Below, piece after piece: positions 5,316 through 8,415 of a DNA stretch of 64,000 nucleotides (the stretch's first letter is position 1; each line of letters starts with the position of its first letter). The notes below the pieces were generated by a model. That model searched no databases. It was not told where the DNA came from and was given only the letters and a program-made list of their open reading frames with translations. The stretch spans positions 1 to 64,000 of the forward strand of contig CAJOHO010000005.1 in assembly GCA_905234555.1 (NCBI GenBank). The letters run 5' to 3'. A program made the translations under genes and the position numbers. The stretch is from an uncultured Bacteroidaceae bacterium (GTDB lineage Bacteria > Bacteroidota > Bacteroidia > Bacteroidales > Bacteroidaceae).

Positions 5316-5323
5316 TATATTTG
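5316..5323 (+). promoter_or_regulatory. -7 element TATATTTG upstream of repeat protein
   Basis: TATATTTGCAGCC fits TAnnTTTG and lies 60 nt before the ATG at 5383. The -33 element is not evident. Confidence 0.55.
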
Positions 5324-5382: not shown

Positions 5383-5745
5383 ATGAAAAGACTACTGATT
5401 TTGTTGGCTGTGCTGACGATGGGGCTTCAAGGAGCTTCTGCACAGAGTGACTACTACATGAGGCAGGCGCAGAGTTATCAGCGTGATGCCGAGTACTATA
5501 TGAAACAGGCGCAGGGCTACGACCGTGATGTTGAGTATTATCAGCGTCAGGCACAGGGCTATATGCGTGATGCTGAATACTATACGCGTCAGAACAACAC
5601 AGATAAGGCGAGAACTTATCAGCGCTGGGCGAGTGAGGCGATGGACAAAGCTAACTTGCGGATGCGCTGGGCGAACGAAGCACGTGAGAAGGCTCAGCTG
5701 CGGATGAAGTGGGCACAAGACGCGATGGAGAAAGCAAGGAGGTAA
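5383..5745 (+). CDS. Exported 14-residue-repeat protein
   Basis: The 120-residue product starts with a typical signal peptide (MKRLLILLAVLTMGLQGASA, cleavage before QSDYY). The mature part is built of 14-residue repeats of two kinds: three copies of YYxxQAQxYxRDxE (YYMRQAQSYQRDAE, YYMKQAQGYDRDVE, YYQRQAQGYMRDAE) and, after a short TRQNNTDKARTYQ linker, three of RWAxEAxxKAxLRM. Such periodicity predicts a long amphipathic helix or coiled coil in the periplasm or at the cell surface. I recognise no named family. It has its own promoter box and is followed after 74 nt by the GTPase-like gene on the same strand, so it may be part of that operon; this link is inferred from position only. Confidence 0.8.
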   Translation: MKRLLILLAVLTMGLQGASAQSDYYMRQAQSYQRDAEYYMKQAQGYDRDVEYYQRQAQGYMRDAEYYTRQNNTDKARTYQRWASEAMDKANLRMRWANEAREKAQLRMKWAQDAMEKARR

Positions 5746-5747
5746 AA

Positions 5748-5784
5748 AGCCTCACCCCCGACCCCTCTCCGAAAGAGAGGAGAG
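5748..5784. repeat. GC-rich dispersed hairpin repeat
   Basis: GCCTCACCCCCGACCCCTCT followed by CCGAAAGAGAGGAG forms a CTCTC-cgaaa-GAGAG hairpin. Relatives occur at 8120, 26990, 27732, 31199 and 60947. Confidence 0.6.
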
Positions 5785-5819
5785 AAACAAACTCGCAGAA
5801 AAGTTAAAACTAAAGAGAA

Positions 5820-7139
5820 ATGATTATGGATGAGCAATATGGGCTGAATGGGCAGCTTGATGGACCTATTGGGCTGAATGTGGCTGAGGCGGACGATAAT
5901 GCCTGGGCGATGTCGCAGTTCATGGGGCTGAACGGGCAGATGGAGGCTTTCCGTCTGTATCTGGCCCAGTATCCAGACGGAAGGCATGTAGAGGAATGTC
6001 GGGCCTTGCTGGATGATCCAGCTTGGTTCTTGGCTCGTAAGACCAATTCTGTCGCTGCTTTCAGCGAATATATGACAAATTTCCCTGGTCGGCACGATCA
6101 AGAGTGTCAGGAGTATATTGATCTGCTGAAGGCGGAGGAAGAGCGGCGTAGGGAGGAAACCAAGAAGCAGCGTGAGGTGGTTATTCGCCAACTTCTGACC
6201 CAACGAGACTCTTATTCCAGCATCGAACTTCGTAACTTCTTAGAGAACGCTGTGCTGTCGGAGGATGATCTGAAATCCTGCGGCTATACGGACGATATGA
6301 TTGCTTCTATCCGTCTTTATCAGCAACCCACTCGTCTGCCAGAGAACCTGCCCGACGAGAACCTGCCGAGTGGTGCTACGGAGTTTTATTTCTGGGGAAC
6401 GCCAGGTAGCGGCAAGACCTGTACGCTGGGTGCTGTGCTCAGTACGGCAAGCCGAATGGGTATGATGGGTAACATCCTGGAGGGTGGAGGCCAGCATTAT
6501 TTCAATATGCTCAAGGGCATCTTCAAGAAAAACAGTCCCTGCATCCTGCCAGAAGGCACTTCACACTCGAATATCGCCAGCGCCAAGATTGAATTCCGCG
6601 ACGAACAGAACCACATCCATCAGGCGACGTTGGTGGATCTGGCAGGAGAGGTGTTCCGCAGTATGCTGGACAAGAAACATGGTGTGATGACGGGTAGTCC
6701 GGAAGCGGCTCGCAGTCTGGATTTCACCCTAAAATATCTGAAAAACACCCGTAACCACAAGGTGCATTTCTTCCTGATTCCCTACGGAGAGGAAGAACTG
6801 GACTGGGACGGTATGTATATAGACTCCTACCTGTCGGAAGGTGCTACCTTCTTGGAACAACAAGGGGTGTTTAACAGCAGCACGGACGGCGTGTATATCC
6901 TGCTCACGAAGTGCGACCGAATGCCTCAGCATACCACTCGTGGTGAGGAGGCTCGTCGCTATATCCAGGAGAACTATCTTTCATTCTTGCGAAACCTGGA
7001 ATCTTACTGTAAGAAGCACAAAATCAAAGGATTCAGCGTCATCTCTTTCTCTATCGGCGACGTGTTTGCCAAGCAGAACTGCTGTTTCGACGAAACTGAT
7101 TCGTTGAAGGTGCTCAAGAAGATACTGGAAAAGACATAG
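5820..7139 (+). CDS. P-loop GTPase-like protein with N-terminal helical repeats
   Basis: 439 residues (the second ATG at 5826 is an equally good start). Residues 1-40 are rich in LNGQ-type sequence. Residues about 42-105 hold two helical repeats of the AF..YL..YP.GRH..EC type (AFRLYLAQYPDGRHVEECRA and AFSEYMTNFPGRHDQECQEY). A charged coiled segment (KAEEERRREETKKQREVV) follows. The NTPase domain shows P-loop GTPGSGKT (about 193-200), a VDLAGE switch/Walker B-like segment (about 271) and LLTKCDRM (about 361), which fits the GTPase N/TKxD base-recognition motif. I therefore read it as a Ras-like or TRAFAC GTPase, possibly of the double-GTPase group predicted in bacterial conflict systems. It precedes the membrane partner gene by 34 nt. 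GTP specificity and function are inferred. Confidence 0.75.
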   Translation: MIMDEQYGLNGQLDGPIGLNVAEADDNAWAMSQFMGLNGQMEAFRLYLAQYPDGRHVEECRALLDDPAWFLARKTNSVAAFSEYMTNFPGRHDQECQEYIDLLKAEEERRREETKKQREVVIRQLLTQRDSYSSIELRNFLENAVLSEDDLKSCGYTDDMIASIRLYQQPTRLPENLPDENLPSGATEFYFWGTPGSGKTCTLGAVLSTASRMGMMGNILEGGGQHYFNMLKGIFKKNSPCILPEGTSHSNIASAKIEFRDEQNHIHQATLVDLAGEVFRSMLDKKHGVMTGSPEAARSLDFTLKYLKNTRNHKVHFFLIPYGEEELDWDGMYIDSYLSEGATFLEQQGVFNSSTDGVYILLTKCDRMPQHTTRGEEARRYIQENYLSFLRNLESYCKKHKIKGFSVISFSIGDVFAKQNCCFDETDSLKVLKKILEKT

Positions 7140-7173
7140 AATTTAATGCATAATTCATAATTCATAATGCATA

Positions 7174-8415
7174 ATGATGAATGGGTTTAATGGGCAATAC
7201 GGGCAGAATGGACAGCTGAATGGTTTTCATGCGATTCGGCTTCGGATCAGTTTGCAATACGGAGAGAAGGGATCGGTCAACTATTTGCTGACACCCGACT
7301 GTGGTGACCGCTGGGAACAGGTGGTGCCGCAAGATAGTCGCACGACGATGCGTCAGTTGTTCGAATCTCCTGTCTCAGCCTATCAGCTGGGCAACTACGC
7401 CCAACTGGGTGGCTTGGTCTATACCCACATCATTCCCAATCCTGTGGATTTCAGGGGTGGGTTCATACAGACTTCGCTCTATGTGGATCGTCGTTACCAA
7501 CTGGCTGCGCCAACGATTCTTGAGGCGTTGGGTAAGACGGAACACCTGCTGTTGGCGCAACAGGAGCGGTTCCACGCATCCATCAAAGGTCAGGACTATG
7601 CCTATAAGCAACAGGTGCAGGCTGCAGCCGATGCTATGCTGCAGGAACTCACGAGACACCTGAAGCCGGCATTGGGTAAGGGTGTTGCGAAACAAGCACC
7701 TGTCTCTACGATGACTTATTACCGTGTGGTGACGAATCGTCAACAGCTGGAAGAAATCTTCAGTTATCCAGATCAAGGTATCTTTACGAAAACGCCTCTC
7801 CTGACGATTGTGGAATCAGCACCTTATCCTGCCTCTCCCCTTGGTCATTCCTTTGTTCCCTACGACCGAACGGGCAAGTGTGTGGAGGTGCGCGAACCTA
7901 TTGTCAAGCCTTCTGAGTTTGTTCCTGCCACCAACGGAAAGATGTACGGACTGAATAATGCTGTCAACTACCCCAACCAAACTGAAAAAAAATCTTTCTT
8001 CAAGAAAAACTGGCCATTGCTGGTTGCGTTCTGCTTTGGTGTGCTGTTCGCCTATCTGGTTTATTGTGTTGCCAGCGTGATGAACGATCACAATCCTTGG
8101 CCATTCCAAGGTGAAGAAGCCTCCCCCCTGCCCCCTCCGATAGAGGGGGAGAGCGATGATGAGTATGAGTGGGAGGATGATGAGTTCATGGAAGAAGATT
8201 CCCTCTATGAACAAGATTATGACCTTGACTATGAGTCAGATAAGATACCTCCTGCTATCGAGGGAGAACAACCACTTCCGATTGAGAAGGAGCGCACCTC
8301 TCTGATAGAGGAGAAGGAAAAAGCCTCGCGAGAGTCCTTCGATTATCGTAGGAATCAACACGAGGCTGTAAAAAAAGCCTCGCGACAAAATCGCGAGGCT
8401 AAGTATCAAGATTAG
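7174..8415 (+). CDS. Membrane-anchored partner of the GTPase-like protein
   Basis: 413 residues. The N-terminus (MNGFNGQYGQNGQLNGF) again has NGQ low complexity like its neighbour. A soluble domain of about 200 residues follows (RLRISLQYGEKGSVNYLLTP ... GLVYTHIIPNPVDFRGGFIQ), loosely like the GAP1-N domains that accompany predicted conflict-system GTPases; this is a guess from pattern. One membrane span lies at about 280-302 (WPLLVAFCFGVLFAYLVYCV), followed by a very acidic stretch (DDEYEWEDDEFMEEDSLYEQ) and a charged tail partly translated from repeats (PLPPPIEGE from a GC hairpin; KASR from the REP-like hairpin). The order soluble domain, span, acidic tail suggests a single-pass anchor, perhaps scaffolding the GTPase. 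No name can be given. Confidence 0.7.
   Translation: MMNGFNGQYGQNGQLNGFHAIRLRISLQYGEKGSVNYLLTPDCGDRWEQVVPQDSRTTMRQLFESPVSAYQLGNYAQLGGLVYTHIIPNPVDFRGGFIQTSLYVDRRYQLAAPTILEALGKTEHLLLAQQERFHASIKGQDYAYKQQVQAAADAMLQELTRHLKPALGKGVAKQAPVSTMTYYRVVTNRQQLEEIFSYPDQGIFTKTPLLTIVESAPYPASPLGHSFVPYDRTGKCVEVREPIVKPSEFVPATNGKMYGLNNAVNYPNQTEKKSFFKKNWPLLVAFCFGVLFAYLVYCVASVMNDHNPWPFQGEEASPLPPPIEGESDDEYEWEDDEFMEEDSLYEQDYDLDYESDKIPPAIEGEQPLPIEKERTSLIEEKEKASRESFDYRRNQHEAVKKASRQNREAKYQD
8120..8152. repeat. GC-rich hairpin repeat inside the coding sequence
   Basis: CTCCCCCCTGCCCCCTCCGA followed by TAGAGGGGGAG matches the intergenic hairpin family and is read as SPLPPPIEGE in the membrane protein. Confidence 0.65.
8376..8400. 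terminator. REP-like hairpin, likely terminator between convergent genes
   Basis: AGCCTCGCGA (8376-8385) pairs perfectly with TCGCGAGGCT (8391-8400), loop CAAAA. It overlaps the last codons of the upstream gene. Read on the minus strand it is followed by a run of T, so it would terminate the convergent phosphate transporter. Confidence 0.7.

Follow-up and report, generated by a model that had tools for sequence, protein, structure and literature searches.

A GTPase and its membrane partner in an uncultured Bacteroidaceae bacterium: a probable remnant of a Srf-type operon of Bacteroidota

In a 64-kb window (the whole stretch of DNA that was analysed, 64,000 nucleotides) from an uncultured Bacteroidaceae bacterium, we identified a gene for a Ras-fold GTPase directly followed by a gene for a partner protein with a single transmembrane (TM) segment, the same arrangement as in a Srf-type operon of other Bacteroidota. 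We consider it probable (roughly 60%) that this GTPase/partner pair is a reduced remnant of that operon. The original prediction, made from the letters of the same DNA, had joined to these two genes a preceding one, for an exported repeat protein, as one three-gene locus. The GTPase and the membrane partner hold as a set, the two genes being adjacent in the Srf-type operons of relatives, whereas the exported protein does not belong to it. The locus comprises:

5316–5323, + strand: Bacteroidota-type -7 box (TATATTTG) upstream of ORF1, a regular-expression match only.
5383–5745, + strand: ORF1, exported protein with 14-residue repeats (120 aa), adjoining the GTPase pair and judged to lie outside the system.
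5749–5784, + strand: GC-rich hairpin repeat that separates ORF1 from the GTPase gene, with four more copies in the genome.
5820–7139, + strand: ORF2, GTPase gene (439 aa), with a disordered NGQ tail (residues 1–18), BamD-like helical repeats (about 21–165) and a Ras-fold domain (about 185–439), as delimited by alignment, AlphaFold2 and PDB fold search.
7174–8415, + strand: ORF3, partner gene (413 aa), with a predicted cytosolic, putatively longin-like N-domain (about 20–215), a linker, a TM segment (282–300), a PWPF motif and a short, acidic, low-complexity tail.
8116–8152, + strand: second, divergent hairpin repeat, in frame within the partner tail and encoding ASPLPPPIEGE.

The three ORFs are on the same strand and, as originally described, consecutive with short gaps (74 bp between ORF1 and ORF2, 34 bp between ORF2 and ORF3). 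No -7 box was found by regular expression between the three genes, and the GTPase/partner pair may therefore depend on read-through. The GC and GC3 contents of the pair fall inside the range of the window, and a recent foreign origin was rejected on these grounds; no relatives were found in viral contigs; an empty-site comparison at the ligA-NaPi junction with genomes of the same genus was uninformative, because synteny is not conserved there. The GC-rich hairpin (GCCTCACCCCCGACCCCTCTCCGAAAGAGAGGAGAG type) occurs in five copies in the genome within 3 mismatches, namely in the window at the position given above and on contigs C2, C7, C11 and C61 of G000, with none for the reversed control, and the hairpin in the partner tail resembles, by eye, the 5749 copy.

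ORF2 carries the G1 (GTPGSGKT, residue 193), G3 (DLAGE, residue 273) and G4 (TKCD, residue 363) motifs and retains every column that is invariant in an alignment of 46 sequences. Its AlphaFold2 model has a pLDDT of 91.9, with 18 disordered N-terminal residues that hold most of the NGQ stretch, and a fold search of the PDB matched Nog1, EF-Tu, EngB, Rab (TMt up to 0.62) and LRRK2 ROC. The P-loop, DxxG and [NT]KxD motifs within a Ras-like fold, by which TRAFAC/Ras-fold GTPases are defined, are all present in the focal protein, which, as judged from sequence and model, is a Ras-fold GTPase with intact G1, G3 and G4 motifs and is predicted to bind GTP. A P-loop GTPase-like protein with N-terminal helical repeats had been proposed for this ORF, and motifs, model and fold search agree with it. 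The repeats resemble BamD-like lipoproteins at the sequence-profile level, and weak matches of the GTPase alignment in many genomes, which cover these repeats only, were not counted. The gene retains coding bias (GC3 of 0.607 versus 0.508 overall). Searches of the three focal proteins against Pfam, NCBIfam and PADLOC gave nothing above the cut-offs, and PDB sequence searches with the single proteins gave no matches. The NGQ-rich N-termini reported earlier for both ORF2 and ORF3 are indeed seen; NGQ/NGP N-termini were found in none of 73 GTPase homologues and are absent from 67 of 69 partner-position genes; they are a local trait and not a family feature.

In relatives, the GTPase is embedded in a highly conserved operon with the order SrfB, SrfC, S8 subtilase (TM), two-TM protein, GTPase, single-TM partner and, usually, an N-terminally anchored protein, after which exported coiled-coil proteins often come. 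With the operon genes labelled by HMMs made from the first neighbourhoods, SrfB, SrfC and S8 were found together upstream in 51 of the 57 GTPase loci with enough upstream DNA, and the two-TM protein in 52/57. A long same-strand gene occupies the partner position in all 55 loci with enough downstream DNA; the position is defined by place and length, and some of the genes in it fell short of the partner HMM. The anchored protein is present in 48 of the 55. The SrfC homologues score 307–414 bits (Pfam cut-off about 28) and the SrfB homologues 605–936 bits (cut-off about 27). Most of these GTPase loci are from Bacteroidota; two belong to Fibrobacterota, and one is on a contig binned as a betaproteobacterium. 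The SrfB-SrfC operon of gut bacteria is apparently undescribed; no paper describing it was found in the open literature, where a search for SrfB with Bacteroidetes was likewise empty, and the term "Srf" does not occur in the text of the work that described DO-GTPase systems (PMC7159879).

Other arrangements were also observed around GTPases. At L176, L186, L189, L195 and L197, a second operon type contains two adjacent GTPase ORFs (about 700–740 and 380 aa), followed by a protein of about 600 aa and then by the anchored protein, with no SrfB, SrfC or S8 labelled nearby. A variant at L055 and L057 (G042 and G013) consists of a two-TM gene and genes for a GTPase of 620 aa that is extended at the C-terminus, a multi-TM protein of 1020 aa, a P-loop protein of 535 aa and a protein of 830 aa; the subtilase and the usual partner are both absent. 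In L113 (11855–17595, G146), genes read by eye as type I restriction-modification-like lie upstream of SrfB, possibly a defence-island setting.

None of the SrfB, SrfC, S8, two-TM and anchored-protein genes is adjacent to the focal pair, and SrfC (PF10139) was not found in the focal genome, which is 81% complete (the control genomes were silent too). The sole S8 found in this genome is at another place, where its neighbours are unrelated genes and include neither SrfC nor a GTPase of the family, and it was rejected as the missing operon part. In the tree, the focal GTPase grouped with the clade L118–L134 (100/97), on a long branch (1.36). This clade includes full loci (L118–L120) as well as partly reduced ones, L121 retaining GTPase, partner and anchored protein, and L122 additionally the two-TM gene. 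A lone GTPase homologue at L050 (8268–9431), with a broken P-loop (GVPGSGIT) and no system neighbours, appears to be far advanced in decay.

The single-span membrane protein with an acidic tail that had been read from ORF3 agrees with both TM prediction and sequence. Its homology to the gene that follows the GTPase in relatives is solid at the sequence level: against an HMM of the N-domains of 12 relatives, from which the focal protein had been left out, it scored 41.8 bits (E = 2.3e-11), and, with 5000 shuffled sequences included in the search, the best 40 matches contained no shuffle, the rest being almost all partner-position proteins. Weak partner matches in G199 and G313 were rejected, the neighbourhood in G199 being unrelated. 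The PWPF motif, just past the TM segment, is common to the focal partner and two of its nearest relatives (L118 and L119), and neither the PEGA-like stretch nor the C-terminal domain found in relatives is present in the focal protein. The N-domain was modelled with moderate confidence (pLDDT mostly 65–95), and its best PDB matches were the Lst4 longin (probability 0.99, TMt 0.53, rmsd 5.3 Å) and TagF (E 7e-4). No sequence-level support for the longin match was detected, and we treat the longin-like assignment as a lead at the level of the predicted fold.

The exported protein with 14-residue repeats is itself confirmed, ORF1 having a signal-peptide-like N-terminus and 14-residue units encoded by 42-nt direct repeats. 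Its homologues, in four other genomes of the same genus and in several more distant ones, are neighboured by rpoC, by transporter/proline genes or by unrelated exported proteins; none adjoins a GTPase of the focal family, most are in genomes without the GTPase, and the genome-level co-occurrence of ORF1 and GTPase is not significant (Fisher p = 0.19; 200 genomes). We judged ORF1 to be an orphan, unrelated to the neighbouring GTPase/partner pair. A true three-gene envelope unit, with ORF1 as the outer component of the GTPase pair, would agree with the adjacency of the genes, their common strand and the lack of a promoter-like box found between them, but the unrelated loci of the ORF1 homologues, the co-occurrence value and the GC-rich hairpin that separates ORF1 from ORF2 all speak against it, so that this highly improbable arrangement is already largely refuted. 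Lack of co-occurrence in related genomes, named in the original prediction as the result that would count against it, was observed for ORF1, whereas GTPase and partner stand side by side in relatives. The proposed link of a cytosolic NTPase to an envelope structure is plausible through the TM partner, and not through the exported repeat protein.

The pair could also be explained by decay or by conflict. The eroded partner tail and the long GTPase branch fit decay as well as function, and a relic, left after most parts of the Srf operon were lost and with no present function, would be consistent with the absence of any other operon part nearby, with the loss of the PEGA-like and C-terminal domains from a partner that has a repeat element in frame, and with the 12 other genomes of the genus, in which no true GTPase homologue was found. 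Nevertheless, both ORFs are intact, and the invariant columns, the well-modelled fold and the coding bias of the GTPase are all preserved, and we regard such a relic as rather unlikely. Somewhat less likely still is a divergent DO-GTPase/GAP1 conflict system, of anti-phage or self-killing type. The resemblance to GTPase-plus-GAP1 conflict systems that had been noted stands for the GTPase at the superfamily level, DO-GTPase (PF19975/PF19993) being the nearest Pfam family, with the focal protein below the cut-off (13.2 bits versus 27) and two GTPase relatives above that of DO-GTPase1 or DO-GTPase2 (32.4 and 27.2 bits); moreover, GTPases occur together with HSP70, PEGA and TM proteins in described GAP1-N2 systems too (PMC7159879). 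It fails for GAP1, which was not detected in the partner or the partner family by sequence-level tests, including a direct GAP1 comparison, and GAP1-N1/N2 were not found in the focal genome by a sequence-level search. The N-terminal zinc ribbon present in 60% of DO-GTPases (PMC7159879) and paired GTPases are both missing from the focal locus, which has TPR-like repeats and a single GTPase instead; in addition, no GAP1 or effector domain is adjacent, and the PADLOC search with the three focal proteins yielded no convincing match.

For a remnant of a Srf-type operon that still functions, the cytosolic TPR-GTPase would act as a nucleotide-dependent switch and dock on the partner's longin-like N-domain, which would place it at the inner membrane, and the partner would couple the GTP state to a cue from the envelope side, for which the PEGA-like and C-terminal partner domains would be the sensors in relatives. 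In the full operon, this switch may gate the assembly of SrfB/SrfC or the membrane-bound subtilase, while in the focal genome only switch and tether would be left, with a shortened output tail, working alone, working with other proteins, or being lost. We infer every step of this mechanism beyond homology and fold. With somewhat less than even odds, we tentatively suggest that SrfB and SrfC are parts of a widespread GTPase machine that spans the envelope and has apparently not been described, composed of an actin/Hsp70-like SrfB, a P-loop SrfC, a membrane subtilase, a TPR-GTPase and a longin-PEGA membrane partner, whose GTPase-partner core could be retained alone as a minimal membrane-tethered switch.

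For a long time, SrfB and SrfC have carried the annotation "virulence factors" with no mechanism attached to it. In commensal and environmental Bacteroidota, the conserved operon connects them with a GTPase, a membrane protease and a sensor-like protein that faces the periplasm, which makes a general role in the cell envelope likelier than a dedicated role in virulence. An envelope role of SrfB/SrfC becomes testable in tractable commensals, and what is left at the focal locus suggests that GTPase and partner form the core switch.

Complexes of the FLCN/FNIP type have Rag GTPases as their targets. Lst4, a longin/DENN-family protein, is the yeast orthologue of FNIP (PMC4703059), and the likeness of the focal partner to Lst4/FNIP longin regulators and to the T6SS regulator TagF lies in the predicted fold of its N-domain; in contrast to these proteins, to which no sequence similarity was detected, the focal partner is membrane-anchored, and no T6SS genes were seen near the pair. 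With the DO-GTPase/GAP1 systems, the family described here shares the broad GTPase superfamily and the association with TM, PEGA and peptidase components (PMC7159879), but TPR-like repeats replace the zinc ribbons, SrfB/SrfC and S8 are found instead, no GAP1 is detectable and no GASH or FNIII protein was recognised. Loss of srfABC affects swarming in Salmonella (PMC4219756), and the srfABC of Xenorhabdus is cytotoxic upon expression (PMC6950479). In comparison with enterobacterial srfABC (SrfB PF07520, SrfC PF10139), the focal locus is devoid of both SrfB and SrfC, whereas the full-length relatives of the pair sit downstream of bona fide SrfB/SrfC homologues, in a Bacteroidota operon that adds to these the S8 subtilase, the two-TM protein, the GTPase, the TM partner and the anchored protein.
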